Positions 3,485 to 29,535 of a stretch of 64,000 bases of DNA are shown here, one piece after another. The position numbers were made by a program, and so were the translations under genes. The DNA lies in the IMG/VR virus record IMGVR_UViG_3300037847_002819, positions 31,890-95,889 of that record, one strand, 5' to 3'. Each line of letters opens with the position of its first letter. Position 1 is the stretch's first letter. Origin of the DNA: a virus. Below the pieces are notes generated by a model. The model was not told where the DNA came from, did not search any database, and worked only from the letters and a program-made list of their open reading frames with translations.

Positions 3485-3489
3485 AATAA

Positions 3490-3879: not shown

Positions 3880-3880
3880 A

Positions 3881-4575: not shown

Positions 4576-4725
4576 GTATATCTCGGATTAGGCGAGGGTT
4601 GTAAAACATATAATAATGCCGGTTTAATGGCGAAATAATTAACCTTCAAATGTTAATATTGGTTAATTAACCGTTAAATACAGGCATTTTAATGTTAATA
4701 TAAAAAATAAAAAATTTGGACAAAG
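4576..4725. other. AT-rich intergenic region with short repeats at a strand switch
   Basis: No gene. It contains the 12-base palindrome GGTTAATTAACC (4661-4672) and AATGTTAATAT twice (about 4650 and 4691), with a third partial copy near 4760. It separates leftward from rightward transcription. It could be a divergent promoter region or part of an origin; the repeats are seen, the role is not. Confidence 0.4.
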
Positions 4726-4820
4726 CCATATGGTTGTATAAATAATAATATCAGCCAATTAATGTTAAAAGCATATGGTAGCAACTTTGGTAATGAGGAA
4801 CGAATGGCTACCTTATATGA
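4721..4820. repeat. Intermodule element E1 (degenerate CATATGG inverted repeat)
   Basis: Holds GCCATATGGT (4725-4734) and GCATATGG (4771-4778). The second is followed by arms GGTAGC (4777-4782) and GCTACC (4807-4812) with CTTTGG between them, then a TATA-like TTATATGA (4813-4820). On the left, GG-ACAAAG-CC makes a minimal arm. This is the least regular of six related elements between 4.7 and 8.2 kb. It probably drives the gene at 4892. Confidence 0.55.
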
Positions 4821-4891
4821 AGTCCGAGGTCGAATAGTAGTGGCTTCGGGGATTGAAGCATTAATCTAACACATTTAGGAGTTGATTAAAA

Positions 4892-5380: not shown

Positions 5381-5417
5381 TTGATGCTTTAATCCCCAAG
5401 CCCCAGATTCACCAAAT

Positions 5418-5508
5418 AACCCGCATAGGACTGATAATTCCGATTCTTATATTTATTATCTGTATGATTAATCAGCCTATGCGGGTTATGCCTTATTTTT
5501 TTATTTTA
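5418..5508 (+). terminator. Hairpin terminator of paralogue A
   Basis: A 12-base-pair stem, AACCCGCATAGG (5418-5429) with CCTATGCGGGTT (5476-5487), has a long AT-rich loop and is followed by CCTTATTTTTTTATTTT. It looks like a strong transcription stop after the single gene. Confidence 0.75.
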
Positions 5509-5509
5509 G

Positions 5510-5587
5510 GGTAGTAAAACCAAAGTGTATTCATTACATGAATATTTATTACCATATGGTTGTATCTTTGAGCAACCCTACATATAG
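5510..5587. repeat. Intermodule element E2 (double inverted repeat)
   Basis: Central ACCATATGGT (5551-5560). Left arms GGTAGTAAA (5510-5518) and TTTATTACC (5545-5553), with CAAAG in the loop. Right arms GGTTG (5558-5562) and CAACC (5573-5577), with CTTTG in the loop. A TATA-like CTACATATAG follows at 5578-5587, so the right half probably positions the promoter for 5660. Confidence 0.7.
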
Positions 5588-5659
5588 TAGCACATCGAAT
5601 AGTAGTGGCTCAAAGGGATTGAGTCGGTATTGATGGAGTCAATACAGGAGATGAAAAGA

Positions 5660-6190
5660 ATGGAACAAGAAAAGTGGATAACAAAGTCTAACGAAATTAG
5701 AGCATGGCTTGAGCATAATGATGCAGGGGCTATGGGAGCAGTAATAACAGTAAATCTAGATGCTGGCGATTCAGCCGCATCCGATGAAGACAGAAATCGT
5801 TTTTGGGAAGCAGTTCGGGCATTATGCAAGACCCTCCCAAACTCGCCAATAAAGAAAGGTCGTGGCTCAACGCTAGACCCAGCAATTCAAGCCGTTGTGG
5901 ATTCTGTGAGCAATCGCATTCAAAATGCTTTTGTCACAATTTCTGACGCTGAATTGCTACTTGAAGTAATGCTACCACATGGTAAAACAGGTGGCGCATA
6001 CGCTAACATTGAAGCATTGGCTTCTGATATGGCAACAAAGGCTGTAAGAGTCCTAAAGGCGGCATTGAAAGATGGTCGCTGGGATGGAACAATGAGCGAT
6101 AGTGGACTAACAGGCATGACTCCGCCTATGAAGTCTGATTCCTCTAACGAGGAAGCAACGGAAGAATCCCAAGAGGAGGAAACCGTCTGA
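5660..6190 (+). CDS. Acidic-tailed paralogue B of the same family
   Basis: 176 residues from the ATG at 5660 (MEQEKWITKSNEI). This start is chosen because it aligns with paralogue A and has CAGGAG 9 bases upstream; the frame is open ten codons further back. It shares the NDAGAMG, DEDRNRFWEAVRALCKTLPN and KKGRGSTL blocks, then diverges and ends in a Ser/Glu-rich tail (SNEEATEESQEEETV). Codon use is richer in G and C than in A. Single-gene module with its own element and terminator. Function unknown. Confidence 0.85.
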   Translation: MEQEKWITKSNEIRAWLEHNDAGAMGAVITVNLDAGDSAASDEDRNRFWEAVRALCKTLPNSPIKKGRGSTLDPAIQAVVDSVSNRIQNAFVTISDAELLLEVMLPHGKTGGAYANIEALASDMATKAVRVLKAALKDGRWDGTMSDSGLTGMTPPMKSDSSNEEATEESQEEETV

Positions 6191-6281
6191 TACCGATTCA
6201 ATCCCTTTAAGCCCCATACGATTCCTACGGGCATCCGGTAACACCTGTTAAAATTACAATTGAATCTGAACATAGGTCAAT

Positions 6282-6360
6282 GCGGAAGAGTAGGAAAGGG
6301 GAAACAGTGAGAAAACCAAAGGACACTCACTGTTTCCCCTTCCGCCCACTATTTTTTTTA
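6282..6360 (+). terminator. Hairpin terminator of paralogue B
   Basis: A perfect 14-base-pair stem, GGGGAAACAGTGAG (6298-6311) with CTCACTGTTTCCCC (6326-6339), lies inside an outer GCGGAA/TTCCGC pairing and is followed by a run of eight or more T at about 6352-6359. Confidence 0.8.
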
Positions 6361-6364
6361 ATAG

Positions 6365-6437
6365 GGTTGTGTCAAATACTGCGTATTACCAAAGTATGAC
6401 ACAACCATATGGTAGCGACTTTGTGCTACCTTATCTG
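6365..6437. repeat. Intermodule element E3 (double inverted repeat)
   Basis: Central ACCATATGGT (6404-6413). Left arms GGTTGTGTC (6365-6373) and GACACAACC (6398-6406): nine perfect pairs, CAAAG in the loop. Right arms GGTAGC (6411-6416) and GCTACC (6425-6430), CTTTG in the loop, then TTATCTG. No good coding frame follows on the plus strand, so if the right half is a promoter its product would be a non-coding RNA. Confidence 0.7.
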
Positions 6438-6439
6438 TT

Positions 6440-6472
6440 AAAAAAATAAAGATGGATTTTTATACAGAATCC
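6440..6472 (-). terminator. Terminator of the leftward zinc-ribbon operon
   Basis: Read on the minus strand, GGATT...AATCC (6454-6458 with 6468-6472) is followed by ATCTTTATTTTTTT. It closes the operon 7120 to 6579. Confidence 0.55.
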
Positions 6473-6578
6473 TAACTGTTGCCGCCATCTCAGGCTCAGG
6501 CTTAGGCGACTATACCACCGTATAGTCTCGTTACATTTTGTCCGGTGGGGAACGCATAAAACCACATTCTTTGGACTA
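6473..6578. ncRNA. Hairpin-bearing untranslated region, possible small RNA
   Basis: No gene. It contains a perfect 8-base-pair hairpin GACTATAC-CACC-GTATAGTC (6508-6527). Its loop CCACC could pair with GGTGG near 6552 to make a pseudoknot. It is either a 3' untranslated structure of the leftward operon or a plus-strand RNA driven from element E3. Confidence 0.35.
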
Positions 6579-6737
6579 TCATACATATCTTCTTTTAGAA
6601 GTCAAGGGTTTATCCGGATTTAAAGCACACCCAATGGCAACTTTATCTTTATTCCGTTCATTCATTTTAGCGACATAACCTGCCCACCAAACTTCTCCAG
6701 CCCTAATTTCTGCTCTCATTTTACTTCTTCTATTCAT
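6579..6737 (-). CDS. Small basic protein (52 aa)
   Basis: ATG at 6735-6737 with ribosome site GGAGATGATT; starts MNRRSKMRAEIRAGEVWWAG and ends LTSKRRYV. It directly follows the stop of the zinc-ribbon gene at 6738-6887. Basic and aromatic; function unknown. Confidence 0.6.
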   Translation of the reverse strand: MNRRSKMRAEIRAGEVWWAGYVAKMNERNKDKVAIGCALNPDKPLTSKRRYV

Positions 6738-6887
6738 TTAATCATCTCCATAATTATCCGGTTCATTATCCTTAACATAAGTATCATACAACATAACCCA
6801 TTCACAGTCGTTACAACAAATGAAAACACTACCTGCATAACTCTCTTCTAATTCAGTATTTGCACTACCGCAAGCATCACAAGTCAT
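6738..6887 (-). CDS. Small zinc-ribbon protein (49 aa)
   Basis: Starts MTCDACGSANTELEESYAGS. Cysteine pairs CDAC and CCNDC fit a two-knuckle zinc ribbon; the tail is acidic (KDNEPDNYGDD). Its start overlaps the stop of the upstream gene. Probably a small nucleic-acid- or protein-binding module. Confidence 0.6.
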   Translation of the reverse strand: MTCDACGSANTELEESYAGSVFICCNDCEWVMLYDTYVKDNEPDNYGDD

Positions 6888-7120
6888 TCTTCCTCATCCC
6901 CCATATATTCTAGGTATTCTTCAAACTGCACATATGATACGGTTGCAATCGTTAATGCGTTAATGTTCATTGTATGTGAAGTATTAGGATTCTGATAACC
7001 TTCATTACGCCTCTTCCATACATGAAACATTATTTCTTTATCCTCGAAATAACTAACCACTCGCTTTTCAATCGTATTGTCCGGATGGACTATTGTTCCC
7101 CACTTTACTTTGGTTTCCAT
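6884..7120 (-). CDS. Hypothetical protein, first gene of a leftward operon
   Basis: 78 residues from the ATG at 7118-7120 (METKVKWGTIVHPDN). The frame is open 13 codons upstream, but that segment lies in the promoter: a TATA-like TTACATATAG ends 19 bases before this ATG, so the mRNA is probably leaderless. Mixed alpha/beta, ends GDEEE. The tail sequence forms the GARGAAGAATGA stop/start junction with the next gene. Function unknown. Confidence 0.65.
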   Translation of the reverse strand: METKVKWGTIVHPDNTIEKRVVSYFEDKEIMFHVWKRRNEGYQNPNTSHTMNINALTIATVSYVQFEEYLEYMGDEEE

Positions 7121-7149
7121 GTTGTTACAAATTAAACGACTATATGTAA

Positions 7150-7220
7150 GGTTTGACAAAGTTCAAACCATATGGTTGAGTAATGGTTCTTTTGAATTAA
7201 TGGATAACCATAAAAAAAAT
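7150..7220. repeat. Intermodule element E4 (double inverted repeat)
   Basis: Central ACCATATGGT (7167-7176). Left arms GGTTTGA (7150-7156) and TCAAACC (7163-7169): seven perfect pairs, CAAAG in the loop; the TATA-like box of the leftward gene at 7120 lies just beyond. Right arms GGTT (7174-7177) and AACC (7206-7209), CTTTTG in the loop. Confidence 0.7.
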
Positions 7221-7275
7221 TTAGGCGAATCCAGCGAGAGAGATAGCCACCGGCTTAGTTTTCGACTCTCTCGCT
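7212..7275 (-). terminator. Leftward terminator with long stem
   Basis: AGCGAGAGAG (7233-7242) pairs perfectly with CTCTCTCGCT (7266-7275). On the minus strand the stem is followed by CGCCTAAATTTTTTTT (eight T, from 7219 to 7212). It ends whatever is transcribed leftward from element E5. Confidence 0.7.
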
Positions 7276-7400
7276 GAATTCTAAAGGGTGTCAGCCTAGA
7301 AGATACCGTTTCCGGTTCTAGGAAGGTGAGTGGATTATCTTGCACCACTAAGTTTGTAACTCAATTTACTGCTTGTTCAATTGAGGGTCACACAACCTTC
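7276..7400. ncRNA. Multi-hairpin region, candidate structured RNA
   Basis: Successive hairpins: CCTAGA (7295-7300) with TCTAGG (7317-7322), enclosing ACCG/CGGT with a TTTC loop; AGTGG with CCACT near 7329-7350; CTCAATT (7360-7366) with AATTGAG (7379-7385). No convincing gene covers them. With the terminator at 7212-7275 they could be the 3' part of a leftward RNA starting near element E5. Confidence 0.4.
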
Positions 7401-7604
7401 TAATGTATTCATCAATTGGTGATTGATGCCCTTTTGGGGAACATACGCTTCAAGAACCACTACCATACTATCCAATAGGACTTCCGATAATGGGTGAAAC
7501 CCGCACCACACGGTTAAGAAGTGCATTACGCCGCTACTAGCGTTGTTCTGCCACTGACTATCCAGCAAAGGTAGCGAACCCTTGCTGAACAATACTATAT
7601 TCAT
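7377..7604 (-). CDS. Doubtful small protein, may instead be non-coding RNA
   Basis: A 75-residue frame (MNIVLFSKGSLPLLDSQWQN onward) lies downstream of element E5. There is no ribosome site. The TATA-like TAGATAAAG ends only about five bases before the ATG, whereas the neighbouring genes leave 19, so a transcript from it would start inside the frame. Composition is hydrophobic and unremarkable. The same strand shows several hairpins, so a structured RNA is an equally good reading. Confidence 0.3.
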   Translation of the reverse strand: MNIVLFSKGSLPLLDSQWQNNASSGVMHFLTVWCGFHPLSEVLLDSMVVVLEAYVPQKGINHQLMNTLEGCVTLN

Positions 7605-7619
7605 CAATACTTTATCTAG

Positions 7620-7686
7620 GGTTTATTCAAAAGACTCAACCATATGGTAAGATGTGCGAATCTTTTGATGCTTCGCAGATATTACC
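7620..7686. repeat. Intermodule element E5 (double inverted repeat)
   Basis: Central ACCATATGGT (7639-7648). Left arms GGTT (7620-7623) and AACC (7638-7641), CAAAAG loop. Right outer arms GGTAA (7646-7650) and TTACC (7682-7686), inner arms TGCGAA (7655-7660) and TTCGCA (7672-7677), CTTTTG loop. Confidence 0.7.
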
Positions 7687-10181: not shown

Positions 10182-10197
10182 GTGTAAATTTTTACAC
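10182..10197. repeat. Short inverted repeat after the tRNA
   Basis: GTGTAAATTTTTACAC, seven pairs around a two-base centre. It may help end the tRNA transcript or bind a regulator of the early operon that starts at 10264. Confidence 0.4.
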
Positions 10198-10263
10198 ATT
10201 TTCACCGCCTAAGAAATTGGGCGTTTTCACATTCCCTAAAAATAACAATAGGAGGAAATAAAA

Positions 10264-14511: not shown

Positions 14512-15772
14512 AACAATAGTAGCAAAGAGAAGTTTAGGACAAGGCCGTTGGGATAGAAAACTAATGGAAAGAATGGTTGAATTATCTGTTGCTGATAATT
14601 ATGAAGAAGCAAAAGAAGAATGGATTGCCACAGGTTCAGTTTGGTGGGGCGGTGATGAAGATGCTCCCGAATGGGTTAGAAACTCACAAATGGGAAGAGG
14701 TAAATGTCTTTGCGGTCATAGTGTAGTTTATCATTTTGAAATTGTTAATACTGAAAATGGTATTGTTGAATGTGTTGGTTCAGACCATATCAATACTTAT
14801 CTAATTATGAAAGAAATTGCTAACAGAACCGGAAGAGATATTGAAGATATTACAGAAGGTGAAATTGATACTTGGATTCAAGAGCGAACAAAAACAATGA
14901 TGGCTAAAGCATGGATGCACCAAAACGGTGAACAGTTTAATATGATATATGAAAAAATCAAAGAGGCTGATATTCTAATTAATGTTAAAGGACAACCTAA
15001 TTTGTTTTGGGATAGTAACGATAACCGTTACAGATATACTTCTGCCCTTAGAAAAAAGGGAGTTGGTTCACCAACAGATAGGTATTATCAAATGGCTTCT
15101 ATTGTTTGGCGTTGGGAACACCCTAACAACAAAAGGGCGCAATCAAGAACAAGAGGCTATCCAACAGATAAGTTGTGGCAAGATATGATTATTTTTGATG
15201 CTATGTTCACTATTAAACACAAAGAAAGGTTTGATAGTTTAATGAACCATGCTCAAGAAAGAACAGAACATTATCTTAGACAACAGGAAATAAGAAGGCA
15301 AAGAGAAGCCCAAAGGCGATTAGAATTAGAAGAAAGACAAAGAGCGTGGGAAGCCGGAAGAGAAGAAAGAGAGCGTCAAGCCGAAATCGCTAGACAAGAT
15401 AGAGAAAGGCGACAAAAGGAACAAGAAAGAAAAGCAACCGAAAGGGCTAAACTAATCCTAAGCACATCAGCAAATGAAACATTTATGCAAATGTGTATGT
15501 ATTATGGTTTAAGACCTTTTGATGTATCTTTGGCAGAAACCGCTTGGGAATATAAATTCTTATCCAGCGTTAAAACACAATTGTCCGAGAGAAGAGAATT
15601 AACAGGAAGTCAATTATCTTCATTAAAAGGAATTTGTGATAAAATGATAACTCCAGCCCAAATCAAATACTTGGAAGATTTGGGCTATTGCCCCGAAGAA
15701 AATTCGGAATGGAGAACGGGATTAACCCGAAAAGAGGCAAGTAATGAAATAGAAAGAATGAAAGAGGAATGA
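14501..15772 (+). CDS. Large hypothetical protein with Cys motif and charged coiled coil
   Basis: 423 residues. Near residues 65-100 a CLCGH ... VECVGSDH pattern suggests a zinc site. Residues about 255-330 form a long Arg/Glu/Gln single helix (QREAQRRLELEERQRAWEAG and so on). The C-terminal part is helical with YLEDLGYCPEENSEWRTG. I do not recognise a catalytic motif. Its place in the early operon suggests a role in DNA or RNA metabolism; not established. Confidence 0.75.
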   Translation: MMVETIVAKRSLGQGRWDRKLMERMVELSVADNYEEAKEEWIATGSVWWGGDEDAPEWVRNSQMGRGKCLCGHSVVYHFEIVNTENGIVECVGSDHINTYLIMKEIANRTGRDIEDITEGEIDTWIQERTKTMMAKAWMHQNGEQFNMIYEKIKEADILINVKGQPNLFWDSNDNRYRYTSALRKKGVGSPTDRYYQMASIVWRWEHPNNKRAQSRTRGYPTDKLWQDMIIFDAMFTIKHKERFDSLMNHAQERTEHYLRQQEIRRQREAQRRLELEERQRAWEAGREERERQAEIARQDRERRQKEQERKATERAKLILSTSANETFMQMCMYYGLRPFDVSLAETAWEYKFLSSVKTQLSERRELTGSQLSSLKGICDKMITPAQIKYLEDLGYCPEENSEWRTGLTRKEASNEIERMKEE

Positions 15773-15936: not shown

Positions 15937-16137
15937 ATGATTAAGTTAACAATTTTGAACGAAACAGGACACACAGAATTAGTTATGGCTTCCGAAGAAG
16001 TCATTGAGCAGATTGATACACACCCTACACATTGGGTTTTCATCAATGGTGAAATGATGGCTAGAGAAGAAATAGCAGGTATTAATTGGGACACTGTTGA
16101 GTCAGTTGATTTAACGCCAGCAATCGTTGGCGGTTGA
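15937..16137 (+). CDS. Ubiquitin-like/MoaD-ThiS-like beta-grasp protein ending in GG
   Basis: 66 residues. Strand MIKLTILNE, strand HTELVMA, helix SEEVIEQIDTHP, strand HWVFINGEM, and the ending VESVDLTPAIVGG. The C-terminal Gly-Gly preceded by a D-x-V-x-L-x-P-A strand is the signature of sulfur carriers (MoaD, ThiS) and prokaryotic ubiquitin-like modifiers, which an E1 enzyme adenylates at the last glycine. The virus also carries an E1/ThiF-like gene (21881) and a JAMM peptidase (23533). The gene has its own promoter, a strong GGAGATGAT ribosome site and its own terminator. The fold is inferred from pattern; a structure prediction would test it. Confidence 0.65.
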   Translation: MIKLTILNETGHTELVMASEEVIEQIDTHPTHWVFINGEMMAREEIAGINWDTVESVDLTPAIVGG

Positions 16138-16168
16138 TTTTATTAACCCGACTATATTTGCGACATTT

Positions 16169-16210
16169 GGGGGGAGAATGGGGCTTAGTGCCTTGTTCTC
16201 TCCCCTTTTT
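16169..16210 (+). terminator. Hairpin terminator of the ubiquitin-like gene
   Basis: GGGGGGAGAA (16169-16178) pairs with TTCTCTCCCC (16196-16205, nine to ten pairs) and is followed by five T. Confidence 0.7.
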
Positions 16211-16224
16211 GCAGTGTGGTTAAT

Positions 16225-16596
16225 ATGAATTTGAAACATTTTATGTCTCCCGATGCTCTTAAAATTTTATTTGAACTGAATGGTTGGAATTTGACAAAAC
16301 CATTCATCCGTGATGAAGTAGCGGTTTTTACACCGGACTTCTATCCCGAAGGTTATGTTATTGGTCGTGGTAAATACGGCCAAATATACGCTTCGGGTGA
16401 AACAAAAATTCTATTCAAGGATAAGGAATATTCTTCTGTAAGTATTTTATTAGAAGAATATCCTTTCGCAGTTAATAACTTTGATGAGTGGGAATTCATC
16501 ATTGAGAAAGAGTGGGTAATTAGTAAAAAAGGTGAGTGGCTTTCATCCTTTTCAACTCTATTTGAATTACCTAAAGCCAGCAAATATAGGTGTTAA
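16225..16596 (+). CDS. Hypothetical protein (123 aa)
   Basis: ATG at 16225 (MNLKHFMSPDALKILFELNG). Alpha/beta, with a glycine-rich turn (VIGRGKYGQIYASGETK) reminiscent of nucleotide-binding or beta-hairpin segments but without a complete motif. Directly upstream of ribonucleotide reductase, so a linked role is possible. Unknown. Confidence 0.65.
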   Translation: MNLKHFMSPDALKILFELNGWNLTKPFIRDEVAVFTPDFYPEGYVIGRGKYGQIYASGETKILFKDKEYSSVSILLEEYPFAVNNFDEWEFIIEKEWVISKKGEWLSSFSTLFELPKASKYRC

Positions 16597-16598
16597 AG

Positions 16599-18461
16599 AT
16601 GTCAAATACAGCAATAGAAACATTGTCTGATATTACAGTGCATATGAAATATGCAAGGTATTTACCAGCAAAGAAAAGAAGAGAAACTTGGAATGAAATA
16701 GTTGAAAGAAACAGAAATATGCATATTAAAAAATATCCAGAATTAACAGAAGAAATAGGTGAAATATATGAAAAATTCGTCAAAACAAAGAAAATCCTCC
16801 CTTCTATGCGGTCTATGCAATTTGGGGGCAAACCTATCGAAATTAGTCCAAATAGGGTTTATAATTGCGCTTATATGCCTATTGATTCCCTTTTATCTTT
16901 TAGCGAGGCTATGTTCCTACTTCTCGGTGGAACGGGGGTTGGATATTCAGTCCAACGCCATCATATTGAGCAATTACCGGAAATCATTCAACCTAATCCC
17001 GAAAGAAAACGCAGGTATCTTATTAGTGATTCTATTGAAGGATGGGCTGATTCAATTAAAATCCTTTTGGAGTGTTATACCGGAAATAGGAGTAGTAGTC
17101 CTATTTTTGATTATTCTGATATTAGACCAAAAGGAAGCCTATTAAGGACTAGTGGCGGAAAAGCGCCGGGTTTTCAGCCATTAAGGGAATGTTTAGTTAA
17201 AATAGAAGGAATGCTTCAAAATAAAAATAATGGCTCTAAATTAGATTCAATTGAAGCACATGATATTATGTGTTATTTAGCAGATGCAGTATTAGCAGGT
17301 GGTATTAGGAGAGCCGCTATGATTAGTTTATTTAGTGCAGATGATTCTAAAATGATTAGTTGTAAGTCTGGTAATTGGTGGGAAAATAATCCACAAAGAG
17401 GTCGTGCAAATAATTCAGCAGTTATTCTTAGACATAGAGTGACTAAAGACTTCTTTATGGGTCTATGGGAAAGAATACAACATAGTGGTAGTGGTGAACC
17501 GGCAGTTTATTTCAGTAATGATAAAGATTGGGGAACAAACCCATGTTGTGAAATTGCTTTGCGACCATATCAGTTTTGTAATCTAACAGAAGTAAATGCT
17601 TCTGATATTACAGACCAAGCAGATTTAGAAGCAAGAGTAAAAGCGGCTTCATTCATAGGAACGCTTCAAGCAGGTTATACTGATTTCCATTACCTTAGAG
17701 AAATATGGAAAAAGAACACTGAAAAAGATTCTTTGCTCGGTGTATCTATGACAGGTATTGCTTCTAATGTTGTTGAACCTTTAGATTTAGAAATGGCTTC
17801 GTTTGCCGCTAAACAGGAAAACAAGAGGATTTCTAAAATCATTGGTGTAAAACCTGCGGCTAGAATTACTTGTGTAAAACCTGCTGGAACTACTTCTCTC
17901 GTTTTAGGAACAAGTAGTGGTATTCATGCTTGGCACGACAATTATTACATTCGAAGAATTAGAGTAGGTAAGAATGAAGCAATCTATTCTTATCTATCAT
18001 CTAATCATCCGGAATTGGTTGAAGATGAATACTTCAATCCGGAGGAACAAGCAGTTATTTCTATTCCTCAAAAGTCTCCCGATGATGCTATCACAAGACA
18101 TGAATCAGTATTTGATTTATTGGAGCGTGTTAAGAATTTTAGTATTCGTTGGGTTAGAACAGGCCATATTGATGGTTTGAATAGCCATAATGTGTCTGCA
18201 ACAATATCTGTTAAAGATGATGAATGGGATGATGTTGGCGAATGGTTATGGATGAATAGACACTACTACAATGGTTTGTCTGTATTACCTTATGATGGAG
18301 GAACATACAAACAAGCACCATTTGAAACAATAGATAAGGAAACATATGATGAAATGATGTTAGCCTTAACTAAGATTGATTTAACTAAAATTACCGAAGA
18401 ACAAGACGATACTAACTTAACAGGCGAATTGGCTTGTGCTGGTGGGGCTTGTGAAATCTAG
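16599..18461 (+). CDS. nrdJ: Class II (adenosylcobalamin) ribonucleoside-triphosphate reductase
   Basis: 620 residues. Reduces ribonucleotides to deoxyribonucleotides with B12 as radical source, supplying viral DNA synthesis. Seen: NCAYMPI (first redox cysteine), FLLLGGTGVGYS, ADAVLAGGIRRAAMI, NPCCEIAL with active-site cysteine near residue 316-317, CNLTEVN, CVKPAGTTSL, and a C-terminal C-x4-C (C613, C618) that shuttles electrons. These match the monomeric Lactobacillus RTPR-type enzyme, slightly shorter than its usual 700 or so. No separate small subunit is present, as expected. ATG at 16599 after AGGTGTT. Confidence 0.93.
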   Translation: MSNTAIETLSDITVHMKYARYLPAKKRRETWNEIVERNRNMHIKKYPELTEEIGEIYEKFVKTKKILPSMRSMQFGGKPIEISPNRVYNCAYMPIDSLLSFSEAMFLLLGGTGVGYSVQRHHIEQLPEIIQPNPERKRRYLISDSIEGWADSIKILLECYTGNRSSSPIFDYSDIRPKGSLLRTSGGKAPGFQPLRECLVKIEGMLQNKNNGSKLDSIEAHDIMCYLADAVLAGGIRRAAMISLFSADDSKMISCKSGNWWENNPQRGRANNSAVILRHRVTKDFFMGLWERIQHSGSGEPAVYFSNDKDWGTNPCCEIALRPYQFCNLTEVNASDITDQADLEARVKAASFIGTLQAGYTDFHYLREIWKKNTEKDSLLGVSMTGIASNVVEPLDLEMASFAAKQENKRISKIIGVKPAARITCVKPAGTTSLVLGTSSGIHAWHDNYYIRRIRVGKNEAIYSYLSSNHPELVEDEYFNPEEQAVISIPQKSPDDAITRHESVFDLLERVKNFSIRWVRTGHIDGLNSHNVSATISVKDDEWDDVGEWLWMNRHYYNGLSVLPYDGGTYKQAPFETIDKETYDEMMLALTKIDLTKITEEQDDTNLTGELACAGGACEI

Positions 18462-18469
18462 GTGATTAG

Positions 18470-18814
18470 ATGAAAACTCGCAGGATTCGGCCTATCCGTC
18501 ATTTGAGTTTTGATGACTTTGTAAGAGTCATTATTTCTTATGATGATGTATGGTCTAATTCTGCGAAAAAGAAGATTAAATTAGCACTTGACGCTTGTGC
18601 AGGTTTAGAAGATGAAACAGACAAAAAGTATAGACTTTGGCAGACTGTTAAAATAGTATTATGGGAAATACCCGAAGCGGTGGAAAGAGGCTTTGCTGAC
18701 TATGCTAGAAAAGCATTTGCAGAAAGACATGAAGCCCTTCAATACCATAATAAAAACCAAACTGATTTCTATAATAATTATATTTACGGAATAATGAAAG
18801 GGTGGTATAAATGA
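18470..18814 (+). CDS. Hypothetical protein (114 aa)
   Basis: MKTRRIRPIRHLSFDDFVRV onward; helical with a basic N-terminus. GGTGATTAG precedes the ATG. The stop overlaps the next start. Unknown. Confidence 0.65.
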   Translation: MKTRRIRPIRHLSFDDFVRVIISYDDVWSNSAKKKIKLALDACAGLEDETDKKYRLWQTVKIVLWEIPEAVERGFADYARKAFAERHEALQYHNKNQTDFYNNYIYGIMKGWYK

Positions 18815-18978
18815 AAGAAAAAGACCCCGAATATACAAAGAGTCATTGGTCGTATAAAAAAAGAGTCGCTACTAAATGTAGGATTTGTGGAGGCCAACTG
18901 CTTTTACCGGAAGATATGAAAAAAGAAATTCACAAAGAATGTGTTAATAATATAAATGATAATAGTTATATGATGTGA
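18811..18978 (+). CDS. Small zinc-ribbon-like protein (55 aa)
   Basis: MKEKDPEYTKSHWSYKKRVA, then CRICGGQLLL and a later HKEC, a C2HC-type knuckle. Basic. Likely nucleic-acid binding. Confidence 0.6.
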   Translation: MKEKDPEYTKSHWSYKKRVATKCRICGGQLLLPEDMKKEIHKECVNNINDNSYMM

Positions 18979-18982
18979 TAAA

Positions 18983-20230
18983 ATGAATGAATTAAAAATA
19001 AGAATACGAAGACCTGACGATTCCCAAGAATTTTGGAGAACAACGATTAAAAGTAATTTGATTAAATCGGCATACGATGTTCAAATTCAATCTAATAGAA
19101 ATGCGAAAGACCCTGTTCATTCTGCTATTACGACTTTCTTTTCTAGTAACTTAAAATCTTCAAGAGGATATTATAATAGACACTATAAATATATGAGATT
19201 ACCTTCACAGGACTTCAACGAAGTTATTGATATTGGAGGTTGTTTGATAGCATTAGGAAGAAGGGGTAATAGATATACTCTAAATGGTAAAACGGAAAGT
19301 TTGCATACTATTGCTTCTGCTTTGGCTAGAGTTACTTTCAAGTCCTGTTTTGAAAAAGATGTGGCTAAACTAATGAAAGGACTGTATGCTACTCTAAGTA
19401 TTCCCGAAGATGTAAAGTATTGTTTAGAGAATAGAGTGCCATTTCATTTCTTCGATAATTTTCAGAAAACCGAAGTTAGATTGAATTGTCAACAGATTAG
19501 CGATAGCGAAGTTGCAATTGAAGTTAGTGATGGAGTTTGGGGAACAATGACTAATAAAGAATTAGAATCCTTCTGTGCTTTTTATCTTCATGGTAAAAAG
19601 AGAAGTAAAAAATGGATGTTTTGTTCTCCTGAGATTCTTTATGAAAGAACAGTAGGAGTTAAACCAAAAATTTCAGATAGAAAACTAATGATTGAATTTC
19701 TAAAGCAAAATAGACAACAGGATATTGTCGAAGATAGGGCTAAGTTATTGGTTAAAGAAACGGCAGAAAAATATCCCGACAGAATCAAAGTCGTTTATGA
19801 TGATGATAAAGAAGTATCAGCCATGTATGTTCGTGGAAAAGGTTGGGATTGGAAACTTACTAACACTAAATTCAAATCAGATATTCAGATGGTTTCGACA
19901 TTTGTTTACTCAACACCCGATACTGATGAATACTTCGCACAAAGAATTGAGAAGTGGGAAGAAGAATGTTTGGGAATTAATAATGATGCTGTTAATAATG
20001 GTTCTGAAGAAGAAATTAAATTACCGCCAAAACCAACTAATGAACCTCAATGGAAAGGGCCGATTTGTATTGATAATATGTCTGGTGGTTCTTCTTTAGG
20101 CGACCAATTTGTAGCAAGAGCATTAGCACTTCTTAATGATACTTTAACAGTAAAAATAGTTAACACGATTAAAAGGTATATATGTAATGATGAAAATAGT
20201 ATAAGAGTTGATTTTGATGAAATGCAGTGA
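18983..20230 (+). CDS. Large hypothetical protein (415 aa)
   Basis: MNELKIRIRRPDDSQEFWRT onward. Mixed alpha/beta; segments such as YKYMRLPSQDFNEVIDIGG and VYDDDKEVSAMYVRGKGWDW. No Walker, nuclease or zinc motif seen. It overlaps the TFB gene by 14 bases, so translation is coupled; it may act with TFB. Unknown family. Confidence 0.7.
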   Translation: MNELKIRIRRPDDSQEFWRTTIKSNLIKSAYDVQIQSNRNAKDPVHSAITTFFSSNLKSSRGYYNRHYKYMRLPSQDFNEVIDIGGCLIALGRRGNRYTLNGKTESLHTIASALARVTFKSCFEKDVAKLMKGLYATLSIPEDVKYCLENRVPFHFFDNFQKTEVRLNCQQISDSEVAIEVSDGVWGTMTNKELESFCAFYLHGKKRSKKWMFCSPEILYERTVGVKPKISDRKLMIEFLKQNRQQDIVEDRAKLLVKETAEKYPDRIKVVYDDDKEVSAMYVRGKGWDWKLTNTKFKSDIQMVSTFVYSTPDTDEYFAQRIEKWEEECLGINNDAVNNGSEEEIKLPPKPTNEPQWKGPICIDNMSGGSSLGDQFVARALALLNDTLTVKIVNTIKRYICNDENSIRVDFDEMQ

Positions 20231-21116
20231 ATGTGGTTGTTTAGTCTTTAATTATAATGAAAGACTAGGAGAGACAGAATGTAGTGATTGCGGATTAGTA
20301 ATCGTAACAGATTTGTTTGAAGAAAGTGTCAGAATGATAGATGATGGAAAGGTTGTCCATTCTGCTGAAAGGGGAGAATTAGGTTCTGTAATAACAGGAA
20401 AGGGTTCGTTTAAGTTTAATAGAAGAGGTAACAATAATGTTATTCCTAGACATATTACTGCTGGTTTGCAGACTTGTAATATGATTCTATCTTCTATCCA
20501 AATAAACCATCCTCTTAAAGATAGAGTTAAGGAATGTTACTTAGAAGCACAAAAGAAAGGTTTGTTTGGAAAAATCAAACTAGAGGCTAGATGCACTGCT
20601 ACTGTCTTCTATGTTCTGAAAGAAAATAGAACACCTGTTCCTATGAAAAAATTATGTTCTGAATATTCGTGTTCAACTAAAGTAGTGAATAGATTAGTGC
20701 GGAAAATGATTCACCACTTCAAAAGTAAGAATATACTTTATGGAGCAGACCCCTCTTTTATGTTAAAGCAGACCTGTTCTAGAATAACAGATGATGTAAT
20801 GTTTTATTCTAATGCTATGGATTTGATGTTAAAGTTAGAACCTATCATAGAAGACCATTGTTATCATAAATCAAAGGCATATTACGCAAGTGTATGTTGG
20901 GTGGCGACAAATATGTTTAGATATTATGGTGTAACTAAGAATGATATTTCTGAAAGCACAGATATTTCCTTATCAGCAATAGGAAAGACAAGTAAAAAAT
21001 TAATCCAAATGTTAGGATTCGATAAAATGTCCGAAATTAAAGGGCGAGATATAATAGAATATGGTGATATAAATGACAATAAGAATGAGAGATGTAATAC
21101 CGACAAGCGAGCATAG
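20217..21116 (+). CDS. tfb: Transcription initiation factor TFB (TFIIB homologue)
   Basis: 299 residues from the ATG at 20217. N-terminal zinc ribbon CSEC ... CSDCGLVI (residues 3-26), then a linker (SAERGELGSVITGKGS) at the B-reader position, then two cyclin-like repeats from about residue 85 to 285. TFB recruits RNA polymerase to TATA-bound TBP; a viral copy could switch host transcription to viral promoters. No viral TBP is seen. The start sits inside the end of the upstream gene. Confidence 0.88.
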   Translation: MKCSECGCLVFNYNERLGETECSDCGLVIVTDLFEESVRMIDDGKVVHSAERGELGSVITGKGSFKFNRRGNNNVIPRHITAGLQTCNMILSSIQINHPLKDRVKECYLEAQKKGLFGKIKLEARCTATVFYVLKENRTPVPMKKLCSEYSCSTKVVNRLVRKMIHHFKSKNILYGADPSFMLKQTCSRITDDVMFYSNAMDLMLKLEPIIEDHCYHKSKAYYASVCWVATNMFRYYGVTKNDISESTDISLSAIGKTSKKLIQMLGFDKMSEIKGRDIIEYGDINDNKNERCNTDKRA

Positions 21117-21252
21117 ATATTGGAAAAAGGATTTTCTAAATACTTATGTGACTACCAATAATAAAAGAAAAGAGTATTGTAAATATCAAACTCTTTTGGG
21201 TCGTAAAGACTCGTTTAAGATATATGAAGAAGCAAGGAGGAAGTTTAAGTGA
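21073..21252 (+). CDS. Small basic protein (59 aa)
   Basis: GGTGATATAA precedes the ATG; MTIRMRDVIPTSEHRYWKKD onward with a basic C-terminus (EEARRKFK). It overlaps TFB by 44 bases and the next gene by four. Unknown. Confidence 0.5.
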   Translation: MTIRMRDVIPTSEHRYWKKDFLNTYVTTNNKRKEYCKYQTLLGRKDSFKIYEEARRKFK

Positions 21253-21884
21253 ATATATTTGCACTATCAAGAAATCCGCAAGAAGCGGCACTAGAAATGT
21301 TAGACAAGCACATAGTTAAAATGCCAACGGAAACTTGCCAAATGTTACATACAAATGTTTTGTATTTTGACTACATTGAACATTATGGTGAAGAACCTAC
21401 TTTAGCGCAAGTAAAGCAGTTTCATAGAGATATTAATTCAAAACTAATGAAACCTGCTATGTTGAATCATCCTTCAACAATATGGGCTAGACAGAACCCT
21501 CATAATACTCGATGGTTATATGAGCATGGTAAAGCATTATGTGAAGAATATACCTATCGCTACGGCAAGGTTCATGGTTCGCAATCTAGAATATTAGATA
21601 TAGCATATACGATTGATGAAGATTCTAATTGGTCGTTTGCTACACCTGTAACTATTGCTATGGATGATAAGTATAGATTAGTCAAAGATAACAGGATTCC
21701 CGATTGGGACTTCGTAATTAATAGTTACAGACATTATTACCTTCAAGGTAAATGGAGGTTTGCTGAATGGAGGGCAAATAGAATGCCAACATGGTGGCCT
21801 AAAGACCACTACAAAAACAAATACAATGAAGGAATAGACAATTATAATAAAAGATGGAATGCAAAATTGGAGAGATTAGAATGA
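21249..21884 (+). CDS. Conserved phage protein, possible pyrimidine-dimer glycosylase relative
   Basis: 211 residues with GTG start (AGGAGG upstream). The opening MNIFALSRNPQEAALEMLDK followed by HIVKMPTETCQML, then NHPSTIWARQ and WLYEHGKALCEEYTYRYGK, is typical of a widespread phage and giant-virus protein family (MNIF...DKHxVKMxxE). I recall this family being linked to pyrimidine-dimer DNA glycosylases; I am not certain of that link. Its end overlaps the E1-like start. Confidence 0.6.
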   Translation: MNIFALSRNPQEAALEMLDKHIVKMPTETCQMLHTNVLYFDYIEHYGEEPTLAQVKQFHRDINSKLMKPAMLNHPSTIWARQNPHNTRWLYEHGKALCEEYTYRYGKVHGSQSRILDIAYTIDEDSNWSFATPVTIAMDDKYRLVKDNRIPDWDFVINSYRHYYLQGKWRFAEWRANRMPTWWPKDHYKNKYNEGIDNYNKRWNAKLERLE

Positions 21885-22441
21885 AGAGAAAAATATTGAT
21901 TATAGGAGTGGGTGGTATTGGGAGTTTCCTAGTGCCACTATTAGATAAAGTAGGAATGTATGATATTTCAGTGGCAGACCCCGATAAGGTCGAAACTAAG
22001 AATTTAACATATCAAAACTTTACAGAAGAAGATGTTAATTTTCACAAAGTAAGTAGGATGAATGCTCGATATAATAGTGTTAATAATGCGAGCAAATTTC
22101 CTATCCTAACTTCTAAACAAATGCAAGGATATGATTTAGTCGTATGTTGTGTTGATAATTTATCAGTTAGAAGAACCTTGTATAATTCAAATATTAAATG
22201 GTTGGATTTAAGAGCGCAAGGTCGTAATGGGGCTTTCGTTACTTCTGATGCAGACCCTAAAATGTATGATTCTTTATTAGCAGGGCCAGATGGTTCATTT
22301 TCTTGTCAAGGAAATTCATGGGATGGTAGCAATAGTGGCGTTCATTTCATGCAAGTTGTTATTGCAGGTATTGGCGCACAATGGATTCAAAGATGGTTTA
22401 ACAAAGAAGATGTAAAATCCTTTATGGTAATTAATGTATAG
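21881..22441 (+). CDS. E1/ThiF-like adenylating enzyme
   Basis: 186 residues from the ATG at 21881. Rossmann nucleotide loop GVGGIGS (9-15), DPDKVETKNLTYQNF (the D-x-D-x-V-E-x-x-N-L block, with Tyr where E1 enzymes usually have Arg), VVCCVDNLSVRRTLYN (acidic pocket and R-x2-L-x-N), GSFSCQGNSW (possible active-site cysteine), and a C-terminal FMVINV. E1/ThiF proteins activate the C-terminal glycine of ubiquitin-like proteins with ATP. It is compact and resembles the PRTRC-type ThiF. With the GG-ending protein at 15937 and the JAMM gene at 23533 it suggests a viral conjugation system. Confidence 0.85.
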   Translation: MKRKILIIGVGGIGSFLVPLLDKVGMYDISVADPDKVETKNLTYQNFTEEDVNFHKVSRMNARYNSVNNASKFPILTSKQMQGYDLVVCCVDNLSVRRTLYNSNIKWLDLRAQGRNGAFVTSDADPKMYDSLLAGPDGSFSCQGNSWDGSNSGVHFMQVVIAGIGAQWIQRWFNKEDVKSFMVINV

Positions 22442-22452
22442 GAGGAATAAAA

Positions 22453-23532
22453 ATGAAAGGAGAGAAATGGACAACAGGACAAATAATGAGAGGCGCATAT
22501 TTGCGCTTAGTGGAAAAAAGAACTTGGCCGCAAATTAAAACACAGATGGAAAAAGAAGGCTTTCCTGTTAGAAGTGTTGATAATTATGGTGCTACAATTA
22601 GAAGATGTATCAATCAATATAACATATCTTTTGATGATGAACCTAAAACAAGTGATTGGAGAAGTGACCCTGCCACAAGAAAACAATGCAGGTATATTGC
22701 TTCTATGACACTACCCGATGGTAAAAATAGCGAAATCACTAAATTAACAAATGAGTTAATAGAAGCCTCAAAGCGTGGTGAATTTGATAAAGAGGCCGCT
22801 AATGAGCAGATTAAACTATTAGAAACTACTCTATTAGAGGCTCAATCTTTCAATGTTAAAGCGAAGAATAATACTAACTTGTTATACAGTGGTGTTGCTA
22901 CCCGTTGGACTCCAAAAGAAGATGCTCTTTTGGTTAATTGGATGAATGAGCATAAAGACGGAGAACAGGGTTTTCCTCCTAATCTGAATAGAACCCCTAG
23001 AGCGTGTCGTGAAAGATGGTTGAGAAGCCTAAAACATCTAACTCCTTCTATTAAGACTGTTAGAAAGAATGGCACATATACTCTTCAAGATGAAACACCT
23101 TTGGAGCAAACATTGGTGTATTATGAAGAACCTAAGAATACAAGTAAAAGACCTAAAAATTGGACTCGCTTGAATAATGAAAGTATTGAATATCCTAATA
23201 CTAACAAACCGTGGACATATGATGAATCATTAGAAGCATTGGTAATGTGGCATTCTATGTCAATTGATGATGCGAGAGAAAAGTTTGGTCGCCCATATTG
23301 GGTGATAGCAAAACATATCGAGAAGCATTTTGATTTTACATATGCTGAAAGTAAATCGTTGCTTATGGAGGCCGCAGGTATCAAGAATCAATTAGAGGCT
23401 AATAAGTTAGCAGAAAAGAAACCTTCGCTTAGGAAGCGTTGGAGAGACAAGAGAAACGCTAAAAAGCAAAGGCGACTAGAGAAGAAACTAGCAAAGACCC
23501 AAAGAAAATTGGAGAAGATGGAGTTGGAATAA
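22453..23532 (+). CDS. Myb/SANT-like DNA-binding protein
   Basis: 359 residues. A Myb/SANT-like repeat at about residues 150-200: RWTPKEDALLVNWM, then RTPRACRERWLRSLK. A second, weaker repeat near residues 255-300 (PWTYDESLEALVMW, FGRPYWVIAKHIEKHF) and a possible third at the N-terminus (KWTTGQIMRG, RTWPQIKTQME). The last 40 residues are a basic coiled coil. Probably binds DNA as a viral regulator. It lies between the E1-like and JAMM genes. GGAGG precedes the ATG. Confidence 0.7.
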   Translation: MKGEKWTTGQIMRGAYLRLVEKRTWPQIKTQMEKEGFPVRSVDNYGATIRRCINQYNISFDDEPKTSDWRSDPATRKQCRYIASMTLPDGKNSEITKLTNELIEASKRGEFDKEAANEQIKLLETTLLEAQSFNVKAKNNTNLLYSGVATRWTPKEDALLVNWMNEHKDGEQGFPPNLNRTPRACRERWLRSLKHLTPSIKTVRKNGTYTLQDETPLEQTLVYYEEPKNTSKRPKNWTRLNNESIEYPNTNKPWTYDESLEALVMWHSMSIDDAREKFGRPYWVIAKHIEKHFDFTYAESKSLLMEAAGIKNQLEANKLAEKKPSLRKRWRDKRNAKKQRRLEKKLAKTQRKLEKMELE

Positions 23533-24021
23533 ATGAATGGTAAATTTAATACAGTAATGAAAAGAATAGATTTAGAAGCAAATAGATTAAAGGCTGAATT
23601 ATACATAGATGCTTATTATGAACAAGGTATGGAAATAAAAGATTTATTTGAACATATTTGGTTTGCTTCAACAGAAATACTGAATGGTTTAGAGGTTCAA
23701 GTTGTTATTGATTCTAATGACGCTATTCATATTTCGTCAGGTTCAGCAGGTTATGTTGATTTTCAAATTGACCCTGTTGGAATGAAATTACCGATTAAGT
23801 GCTGGATTCACACACACCCATTCGGTAGTGCTTATTTCAGTGGAACTGATATTAGAACAGTTAGTATTTGGCAACCATTAATGAAGACTGCTTATGTGTT
23901 AGGTGGAGATGGGCATTATGGTTCTTGGAATCAAAAAGAACCTTATCTATTAGATATATACCGTAACCATGAATATGAAAGAACACAAGTTTGGGTTAGA
24001 AAAGGAGATGAAGAAGAATGA
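23533..24021 (+). CDS. JAMM/MPN metalloprotease (deubiquitinase-like)
   Basis: 162 residues. A complete JAMM signature: HTHPFGSAYFSGTD at residues 93-106, that is H-x-H-x7-S-x2-D, with a candidate upstream glutamate near residue 48-54. JAMM enzymes use zinc to cut isopeptide or peptide bonds after ubiquitin-like Gly-Gly tails. It lies in the early operon two genes after the E1-like gene, not among the tail genes, which argues against a tail-lysis (lambda K-like) role. Confidence 0.85.
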   Translation: MNGKFNTVMKRIDLEANRLKAELYIDAYYEQGMEIKDLFEHIWFASTEILNGLEVQVVIDSNDAIHISSGSAGYVDFQIDPVGMKLPIKCWIHTHPFGSAYFSGTDIRTVSIWQPLMKTAYVLGGDGHYGSWNQKEPYLLDIYRNHEYERTQVWVRKGDEEE

Positions 24022-24332
24022 GATTTAGAAGAATTAAAAGTGGAAATAATGCAATTAGACAATACAAAGGAAAGCCGTTCAATAAAGAAACGCAGTATGG
24101 CGAATCGGATGCTAAGGCAGTCGCTAGAATAACTCTAAGTGAAAGAAAGCGAAGACATATGTCAAAACACCCTAATGATGAAAATACTACTAATCCAAAC
24201 AAGGGAGTTTATTGGGGCAAGAAAGGTAAGTCTCACAAAGACTTAATGGAATTCCATAAGAATCATATTTGGACATATATTGATGCTGATATGAATAAGG
24301 GATGGGTTAACATCAGTGGTGAAGAAGAATGA
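24018..24332 (+). CDS. Small basic protein (104 aa)
   Basis: MRFRRIKSGNNAIRQYKGKP onward; Lys/Arg-rich with polar, glycine-rich sections, ending SGEEE. Translationally coupled on both sides by GAAGAAGAATGA junctions. Likely nucleic-acid binding; unknown family. Confidence 0.65.
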   Translation: MRFRRIKSGNNAIRQYKGKPFNKETQYGESDAKAVARITLSERKRRHMSKHPNDENTTNPNKGVYWGKKGKSHKDLMEFHKNHIWTYIDADMNKGWVNISGEEE

Positions 24333-24601
24333 TACAATGGATGCTTAGGAAGACAATATGGTTTATGGGTCTTGTTTATGTTACATTAGACAAGTTTGTA
24401 AAATATGAAGATAGTGATAAAATCTTAGGTATTAAGATTGATGATGATTTTCAAAGAATGACAAGAAGAGAATTATGTAATTATGTCGAATTTAAGTTTG
24501 GCTGGGATGAAGGTTCTTTTTGGGGATTGCAGTCCACACAGAAAATTAGAGTATGTTGCCAAGTGGCAAGAAATAATAGATTCAAAGGTGAAGAAGAATG
24601 A
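24329..24601 (+). CDS. Hypothetical protein (90 aa)
   Basis: MIQWMLRKTIWFMGLVYVTL: a hydrophobic N-terminal helix that could associate with a membrane, then a charged alpha/beta part. Ends KGEEE. Unknown. Confidence 0.6.
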   Translation: MIQWMLRKTIWFMGLVYVTLDKFVKYEDSDKILGIKIDDDFQRMTRRELCNYVEFKFGWDEGSFWGLQSTQKIRVCCQVARNNRFKGEEE

Positions 24602-27889: not shown

Positions 27890-28109
27890 ATGGATTTACT
27901 TAGCAAATGCTATGTGGACTTATGCTGAAAAGCATGAAGGTAAAATTAGCCGCCTTCTAAAAGAATTGGTTAAAATAGTAAATAAAAATATGGAGATGAT
28001 TATAAATGACAATGAACAGACTAGCGAGACTATTAGAAAGCACAGACCAGAAAACACCAACACAACAAGTTTCGATGATAACGGAACAAGTGGGAACATT
28101 CAAGAATAA
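27876..28109 (+). CDS. Possible small protein overlapping the ligase start
   Basis: 77 residues, MKKNEWIYLANAMWTYAEKH onward, with a Thr/Asn-rich tail. It overlaps the ligase frame by about 100 bases, unusual here, and its ATG lies ten bases before the customary junction ATG. The first 43 codons lie in otherwise unused sequence, so part of it is plausible. Confidence 0.4.
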   Translation: MKKNEWIYLANAMWTYAEKHEGKISRLLKELVKIVNKNMEMIINDNEQTSETIRKHRPENTNTTSFDDNGTSGNIQE

Positions 28110-29535
28110 ACCAGCACTATTCGCAATTTTGGCTAGAGAATATCCTAATAATAACATAGGATTATCAAGAGCGAAAAAGTGGATGGCTAAGATATACGAT
28201 GTTTTTGAAGATGAAATAGAAATTGAATACAAAGCACATGATGATTTAGGAGATGCTATCTATTACTTGGATATATCAGCAGAAACAAAAGAACAAACTC
28301 CGCTATCAAGTGTATTGAGTTTGCTTTCTATGGATTGTGATGGTATCAAAACTGAATCTTTCAAAACTATACAACACGCTATTATTAATATGAGTGCATT
28401 AGAATGTCGTTGGTTTATCCGCTATTGGCTAAAGACACCACGCAACGGAATCAATAGTGGTATTGTTAAGAAAGTAATAGCAAAACACTACAACAAGAAG
28501 GTATCAGAAGTTAAGAAGCATTGTAACTTTAACACTATTTCTGATGTGGTAAGATATTATGAATCTAATTCTGAACCACCTACTAATCTAGAACATGGGT
28601 CTTTTGTAGCACCTATGTTAGCAAAAGAAATACCTATGAACAAATGGCCTGTTAATAGAATCGTTGATTACAAATATGATGGTAATAGGTATCAGATTCA
28701 CAAAGAAGGAGACAGTGTAATTATCTTTAACCGCAAAGGAAATATTGTTACTCCGCAGTTTCAAGATGTAGTCGAACAAGTTAGAAAATACAATGTTCAC
28801 ACTTGTATTCTTGATGGGGAAATATATCCTATTAATGAAGATGGTTCACCTGCTGAACATAAACTAATGGGAACAAGAGTCCATTCTAAGAATCACGAAG
28901 AAGCAAGAGAAAGGGTCAAAGTAAAATGGGTTATTTTCGATTGCCTAAAGTTTGGTAAGGACACCATTATGGACTTGCCGTATTCTGATAGATTAATAGC
29001 GATTAAAACATTACCCGACCAAGCACATAGAATGACAGGAACAGATACCTTAGCATTTTACAATAGAGCAATCAATGACGGCTTTGAAGGCATTATAGTT
29101 AAGGATGCCTCTTTGCCTTATGAATCCGGTAAAAGAAGTGTTGGTTGGGCTAAATACAAACCCCCTAGAATTAATCTAGATGTAGTTGTTCTTAGTGCAA
29201 AGTATGGTGAAGGAAGAAGGGCAAATGTATTTGCTTCATTCGCTATGGGAGTTAGAAGTGAACATGGTGATTATGTTCCTTTAGGTTCTATTGGTAGTGG
29301 TTTCAGTGATTCGCAGTTAGTTAGATTGACAAATGATTTAAGAAGAAATATTGATAGTCATTCTAATGGCACATATCACTTCATCCCAAGAATTGTTCTT
29401 GAAGTAACTGCTGATTTAATTTCACAAGATGCTCAAGGTAATTGGGGATTAAGGTTTCCAAGACTAGTTAGAATTAGAGATGATAAGTTTGTAGCAGATA
29501 TTAATACATTTGATGATTTAATGGAGATGGTGTGA
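28006..29535 (+). CDS. ATP-dependent DNA ligase
   Basis: 509 residues. Joins nicks using ATP. Motif I KYDGNRYQIHK with the adenylated lysine near residue 223; RKGN (motif Ia-like); ILDGEIYP (motif III); FEGIIVKD (motif IV); SVGWAKYKP (motif V). An N-terminal helical DNA-binding domain fills about the first 200 residues, as in archaeal and eukaryotic ligases, and a C-terminal OB domain follows. Length fits archaeal ligases (about 560) with modest trimming. GAGATGATT precedes the ATG. Confidence 0.93.
   Translation: MTMNRLARLLESTDQKTPTQQVSMITEQVGTFKNKPALFAILAREYPNNNIGLSRAKKWMAKIYDVFEDEIEIEYKAHDDLGDAIYYLDISAETKEQTPLSSVLSLLSMDCDGIKTESFKTIQHAIINMSALECRWFIRYWLKTPRNGINSGIVKKVIAKHYNKKVSEVKKHCNFNTISDVVRYYESNSEPPTNLEHGSFVAPMLAKEIPMNKWPVNRIVDYKYDGNRYQIHKEGDSVIIFNRKGNIVTPQFQDVVEQVRKYNVHTCILDGEIYPINEDGSPAEHKLMGTRVHSKNHEEARERVKVKWVIFDCLKFGKDTIMDLPYSDRLIAIKTLPDQAHRMTGTDTLAFYNRAINDGFEGIIVKDASLPYESGKRSVGWAKYKPPRINLDVVVLSAKYGEGRRANVFASFAMGVRSEHGDYVPLGSIGSGFSDSQLVRLTNDLRRNIDSHSNGTYHFIPRIVLEVTADLISQDAQGNWGLRFPRLVRIRDDKFVADINTFDDLMEMV

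Follow-up and report, generated by a model that had tools for sequence, protein, structure and literature searches.

In archaea, proteins are tagged by the SAMP system, in which Gly-Gly-ended beta-grasp modifiers (SAMP1-3) are served by a single E1-like enzyme (UbaA) and a JAMM deconjugase (HvJAMM1), with no recognisable E2 or E3; conjugation by this system is established (PMC4443979, PMC4895103). Related sets occur in bacteria and their phages: the PRTRC system of plasmids (ThiF, a ubiquitin-like [Ubl] protein C, a JAB protein A, and an E2-like protein B), the anti-phage conjugation systems (CBASS Cap2/Cap3, Bil, Bub), which contain an E1-type adenylation domain and a JAB peptidase, and crAss-like phages (cr106_1; crAss001 gp76/gp77), in which an E1 adjoins a JAMM peptidase. 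Viruses usually hijack or evade host ubiquitin-type systems; here we describe a locus suggesting that abundant viruses of ocean archaea bring a modifier, an activator, and an eraser of their own. It lies in a 64-kb stretch (the window) of the IMG/VR virus record IMGVR_UViG_3300037847_002819 (95,889 bp). We consider it probable that its three genes, listed below, form a compact virus-encoded module for reversible Ubl conjugation that acts early in infection.

15937-16137, + strand: ubiquitin-like modifier, 66 aa (AlphaFold2 beta-grasp, VIA-align matches, invariant C-terminus)
21881-22441, + strand: E1/ThiF-like activating enzyme, 186 aa (GVGGIGS, DPDKVETKNLTYQN, CCVDNLSVR, WLDLR, invariant Cys142)
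23533-24021, + strand: JAMM/JAB metallopeptidase, 162 aa (E54, H93, H95, S103, D106)

A preliminary description of the window, made from its sequence alone, had reported at 15937-16137 a 66-residue open reading frame (ORF) ending in LTPAIVGG, which is indeed found there. The beta-grasp fold and the persistence of the Gly-Gly end in orthologues, on both of which that description let its proposal depend, were borne out by prediction and by alignment, respectively. From a 43-sequence alignment, AlphaFold2 modelled the modifier with a pLDDT of 91.8 in the beta-grasp order (strand-strand-helix-strand-strand-short helix-strand). The Foldseek list consisted mostly of ubiquitin, SUMO, ISG15, NEDD8, ThiS, and MoaD, and VIA-align did not rank MoaD, ubiquitin, TtuB, and JAMM-bound SAMP2 apart, each with a Z score of about 5. 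Taken alone, these fold scores are modest; their weight lies in the fact that nearly all the matches come from one superfamily and that the whole protein is covered. The sequence matched nothing better than chance in Pfam, PHROGs, NCBIfam, PADLOC, or PDB, and Pfam ThiS gave no match at E 1, though fold and Gly-Gly agree.

At least 94 relatives of the modifier are present in IMG/VR, those listed being 69 to 100% identical, and the protein is more conserved than most of its neighbours (22 to 42% for the TFIIB-like factor [TFB], 44 to 59% for the chaperonin); judged from these comparisons, it is under strong protein-level selection. PAIVGG was found in all 71 distinct coding sequences, with the Gly-Gly spelled by 14 codon pairs. 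The Gly-Gly therefore does not stem from a Shine-Dalgarno GGAGG, an explanation that we rejected since the codons vary and no start codon lies downstream. It is followed by no residue in 17 of the sequences (the window's included), by one in 6, and by two in 48. Lysines are scarce, with at most one in 54 of 56 sequences and none in 17, where about five would be expected from the neighbouring proteins. In relatives the modifier stop codon often lies within a hairpin whose stem takes in the tail codons (e.g., L026, about 390-430; L037, about 10190-10240). Over the 71 sequences the hairpin had a mean z of -1.35, with z below -1.5 in 41%, and was not significant in the window itself; it may mark a transcript end and may account for the variable tails of one or two residues.

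The E1/ThiF-like enzyme, also correctly placed at 21881 by the preliminary description, was matched by Pfam ThiF with an E of 3e-17. We place its start at the ATG of position 21881; a start at the other in-frame ATG, 21854, would overlap the gene upstream. AlphaFold2 gave it a pLDDT of 89, the loop around C142 being the least confident part, and VIA-align aligned about 175 residues with UBA3, SAE2, ThiF, MoeB, and UBA5 at Z 18-20. All PDB matches of its sequence profile were E1/ThiF/MccB-type proteins. In an alignment with Escherichia coli MoeB and ThiF, PRTRC ThiF, and crAss-phage E1, residues G9, G11, G12, G14, D33, D35, N41, Q45, K56, D92, R97, and C142 were invariant, C142 sharing a column with ThiF C184 and MoeB C187. 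We take the roles of these residues (nucleotide site, Mg-binding D92, catalytic Cys) to be those established for ThiF and MoeB. The nucleotide site, the Mg-binding Asp, and the catalytic-Cys position were intact in 72 of 72 full-length relatives, all of which keep the glycine loop, DNxxxR, WxDLR, and SCQ. The NCBIfam UbaA model scored 30.6 bits against a cut-off of 450.

At 23533 the JAMM motif reported as perfect, HTHPFGSAYFSGTD, does read H-x-H-x7-S-x2-D. Pfam Prok-JAB matched the protein with an E of 2e-4, just below the curated cut-off (21.6 versus 25 bits), and the best PDB matches of its profile were AMSH-type deubiquitinases (E 0.0017). E54, H93, H95, S103, and D106 were invariant in an alignment of ten, and HxHx7Sx2D was intact in all 81 complete relatives; 10 further relatives, which sequence ends cut before or within the motif, were left out. 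The idea that a tail after the Gly-Gly predicts the presence of the JAMM was rejected, the gene being kept with tailed and tail-less modifiers alike. A peptidase retained even beside modifiers that need no trimming probably has a function beyond maturation, which argues for a deconjugating role.

Three further features of the peptidase genes were observed. The JAMM and several consecutive early proteins (window 23533-24601 and other early genes) end in GEEE; these tails are a translated GGAGG-type ribosome-binding site plus an overlapping ATGA, a side effect that is not functional. The JAMM N-terminus differs abruptly between otherwise nearly identical viruses (window 23533-23570 versus L002 11656-11750), that of L002 having a CxxC zinc-ribbon-like start that is absent from the window's protein. 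Four JAMM matches run through one TGA and one is in two pieces (G020, G023, G049, G055, G043), possibly through frameshifts, assembly errors, or start-site artefacts.

The virus that carries these genes matches, by gene content rather than by a tree, the order Magrovirales, the viruses of marine Poseidoniales archaea. Between about 4.9 and 45.5 kb of the window, the + strand carries replication-type genes, and virion genes lie on the - strand. The proteins include a split family B polymerase (PolB), TFB, RFC, Cpn60/co-chaperonin, DNA ligase, an ERCC4 nuclease, a class II ribonucleotide reductase (RNR), terminase, portal, and an HK97/SU10-like capsid protein. The traits given for the order by the International Committee on Taxonomy of Viruses (ICTV), namely, a tailed virus of 90-110 kb with opposed replication and virion blocks, split PolB, TFB, RFC, and Cpn60/co-chaperonin, are thus all present. 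GenBank phages contained neither a near match to the window nor a relative of the modifier or the JAMM. We considered and rejected the ideas that the modifier has a homologue in the host or was recently captured from it, a genome scan that covered no Poseidoniales having given just virus contigs seemingly misbinned in a bacterial metagenome-assembled genome (MAG). This public Altibacter (Bacteroidota) MAG holds two contigs with the magrovirus modifier gene (NZTP01000027.1 and NZTP01000030.1), which are probably contamination of the bin.

Whether the three genes co-occur across related viruses, a check proposed in the preliminary description, was determined on 50 Ubl-bearing contigs of at least 42 kb. 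The E1 was present in 48 of them and the JAMM in the same 48; both misses are contigs that end shortly after the modifier, by 3.0 and 5.8 kb, the second with the first 14 E1 residues visible at its end, so that the trio is complete in 48 of 48 testable magrovirus-type contigs. The order Ubl-E1-JAMM on one strand was kept in all 46 unbroken contigs and in one that is circularly permuted. One contig, G037 (IMGVR_UViG_3300021958_000021, 184,733 bp), carries two different full Ubl/E1/JAMM sets about 93 kb apart (L066 and L069); either the assembly is chimeric or the contig joins two related genomes.

The decisive link came from a distant phage, L011/L012 (L011 is IMGVR_UViG_3300009008_002419), with a 93.8-kb genome, a bacterial-type sigma factor, and PolA. 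Here Ubl, JAMM, and E1 stand side by side as one operon, the end of each gene overlapping the start of the next. The Ubl, of 79 aa, ends in LTNALVGG and was found by profile at E 1e-4 among 1129 ORFs; the JAMM has the site HTHPNNLPIPSMTD and scores 53 bits with Prok-JAB; the E1 is 36% identical. The three genes are therefore linked functionally. The simplest reading is a trio of common origin in genomes that were reshuffled afterwards. Two scans for more relatives of the operon returned the same virus twice and nothing else. The cluster at L011 3130-10603 comprises a 754-aa protein, Ubl, JAMM, and E1, and the class II RNR upstream (3130-6507, 1125 aa) seems to hold an intein-like insertion.

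With SAMP the magrovirus set shares the Gly-Gly beta-grasp modifier, the single E1-like enzyme, the JAMM, and the lack of a recognisable E2 or E3. It differs from SAMP in that the genes are viral; the E1 consists of a Rossmann core of 186 aa that lacks the N-terminal Arg helix, the second Arg, and the zinc CxxC pairs; and no sequence match of the modifier to the ThiS/MoaD families could be detected. PRTRC has, in principle, the same Ubl and JAB partners, and its ThiF is homologous to the viral E1 over the full length (hhalign 98%, 28% identity, E 4e-14; TIGR03736, 42 bits versus a cut-off of 145). Like the viral enzyme, PRTRC ThiF has no N-terminal Arg helix, but it keeps the second Arg, where the crAss E1 has Gly. 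PRTRC protein C, a Prok_Ub protein, does not end in Gly-Gly in two examples, and the gene order differs; the viral modifier showed no Pfam Prok_Ub match and no profile similarity to protein C. PRTRC also has Prok-E2_D and ParB, neither of which turned up among the virus early-region proteins scanned, no genome-wide search having been made. In crAss-like phages the E1 (hhalign 98%) and the JAMM, which has the same HxHx7SGTD site, lie near a class II RNR; unlike the viral enzyme, this E1 has an N-terminal extension of about 180 aa, no Gly-Gly protein was seen nearby, and the candidate Ubl (QOR58313/gp79 N-terminus) has a different end. In two such loci, L165 (MT774378) 1683-6654 and L182 (crAss001) 3247-7657, the E1-like protein and JAMM (HSHNN..FFSGTD) are accompanied by a conserved protein of 434-444 aa and by one that looks like a Ubl; the E1 and JAMM are annotated merely as a thiamine biosynthesis protein and a metalloprotease. 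CBASS, Bil, and Bub use E1-E2 fusions or separate E2s, none of which were found in the viruses (PADLOC; Pfam UQ_con [PF00179] in 19 large magrovirus genomes).

Our reading of the trio as a conjugation module is based on gene identity, predicted folds, conserved catalytic residues, co-occurrence, and operon linkage; from these we infer every chemical step, the targets, and, by position among the replication genes, the early timing. The JAMM would trim the precursor where one or two residues follow the Gly-Gly, the window's modifier being born mature. The E1-like enzyme would then adenylate the C-terminal Gly with ATP and hand the modifier to Cys142, as ThiF, UbaA, and eukaryotic E1s do. The activated modifier would pass to lysines of viral or host proteins, directly or via a partner, for which a 415-aa Cys protein encoded at 18983 (see below) is the candidate, and the JAMM would later remove the tag. 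Because it has no lysine or one, the modifier would tag singly and not as a chain; its lysine poverty suggests single tags and the avoidance of self-ligation.

Several observations weigh against conjugation. As the preliminary description had noted, no E2 is seen: UQ_con detected none in the 19 large genomes, although this model rarely detects prokaryotic E2s, including in controls, and no E3 was recognisable. NLxRQ and the CxxC zinc pairs were found in 0 of 72 E1 relatives; the E1 has NLxYQ instead, with Tyr for the second ATP-contacting Arg, and in aligned sequences the E1 begins right at the Rossmann fold, without the N-terminal Arg-finger helix of MoeB/ThiF. With the helix, the second Arg, and the CxxC pairs missing, E1 activity cannot be assumed. 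Finally, lysine-poor modifiers also fit sulfur carriers, E. coli ThiS having no Lys, so that lysine poverty cannot decide between tagging and sulfur transfer.

Sulfur transfer is the main rival, though we regard it as unlikely. In this case the E1 would adenylate the modifier to give a C-terminal thiocarboxylate, from which sulfur would pass to, e.g., tRNA (s2U) or a metabolite, with host sulfur donors, and the JAMM would trim the precursor (as QbsD does on QbsE) or release the product (as Mec+ does on CysO). The modifier has the size of ThiS (66 aa), its fold ties with MoaD and TtuB, and short variable tails of one or two residues follow the Gly-Gly in 54 of 71 sequences, a likeness to QbsE; moreover, Urm1, SAMP2, and TtuB serve in both sulfur transfer and conjugation. 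However, rhodanese (PF00581), PAPS reductase/PP-loop (PF01507), and CysM (PF00291) were found in 0 of the 19 large genomes, with positive controls. The host could supply these functions, but all the partners would then be the host's. The E1 has no rhodanese domain, and the JAMM is kept where trimming is needless.

The peptidase might instead serve mainly in counter-defence, stripping host SAMP-type tags off viral proteins, while the viral Ubl and E1 would act as decoys for the host SAMP pathway or compete with it. Many putative deSAMPylases are encoded on the Borg elements of archaea, where they have been proposed to work against tagging by the host (PMC12660748), and bacterial Ubl conjugation can be anti-phage according to work cited there. 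Yet the viral JAMM is single-copy, its conservation strictly follows that of its own Ubl and E1, and an operon of the trio in a phage with a bacterial-type sigma factor and PolA is not what a SAMP-only role predicts; we give this explanation a small chance. A peptide- or metabolite-adenylating enzyme of the MccB/AclA type, with the small protein as its peptide substrate and the JAMM maturing the product, is very improbable. The E1 profile did have AclA (9egb/9egc) and MccB among its best sequence matches in PDB, but the substrate would be a folded, highly conserved beta-grasp protein and not a short leader peptide, the E1 fold is at least as near to UBA3, ThiF, and SAE2, and the E1 keeps the Cys of the catalytic column.

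If conjugation does occur, a further gene between the modifier and the E1 may take part in it.

18983-20230, + strand: 415-aa protein of unknown family, candidate fourth component (co-conserved; invariant Cys)

The gene occurs across the loci in 56 sequence clusters, and its product has an invariant Cys in the C-terminal block GPICIDN...GDQFxxRALALLND. In L011, an HMM of this block matched the gene that immediately precedes the Ubl (E 0.0026, 1129 ORFs). GPICIDN resembles ICLDIL of the E2 active site, and an E2 would also fit the apparent order helix-strands-Cys-helices. The protein had no match in Pfam or PDB, and its hhalign score with UBE2D2 (20.4, versus 17.0 for the best of 30 shuffles) was not significant, so that we do not claim E2 identity; as a lead from sequence comparison, it is a possible cryptic E2 or target adaptor. 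That the viruses own a complete pathway, in which this protein as E2 would pass the modifier on via the GPICIDN Cys in an E1-E2-Ubl-deconjugase set independent of host SAMP machinery, we hold to be unlikely.

In uncultured archaeal viruses, MoeB/ThiF has been listed as one of the most prevalent auxiliary genes, with a tie to ubiquitination suggested (Coutinho 2021, PMC8276007). These genes probably include the same E1; the modifier, the JAMM, and their linkage are unreported there. Neither the viral modifier nor the peptidase nor their universal linkage was described in the literature compared, outside of which lie Philosof 2017 and Prabhu 2025, where earlier annotation is possible, and neither one magrovirus paper nor the ICTV profiles mention the system. 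With 66, 186, and 162 residues, the system would be a minimal one in which to ask if an E2 is required for Ubl conjugation of the archaeal type, and it would offer a concrete way into the reprogramming of the barely studied Poseidoniales by viruses. The L011 trio and the crAss-like E1-JAMM pairs suggest that phage-borne Ubl systems form a wider class, most of it unannotated.

Two observations concern other genes of these viruses. An 841-aa protein that adjoins the head protease in the virion block (L170 8709-11234, - strand) contains an ATP-dependent DNA ligase domain, the second after the ligase of window 28006-29535. About 20 late genes, mostly short, share the start motif M[ST]W[KE]xILK (MSWKDILK, MTWKEVLK, MSWENVIKR, and others). 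They lie at window 484-4213 (- strand), L171 (G000:15501-32500) 2180-5445 and 14682-15110, and L170 11943-15634, and the motif is also present on a 1109-aa protein. By its sequence it looks like a common N-terminal sorting or capsid-targeting tag, presumably similar in spirit to the T4 internal-protein signal.

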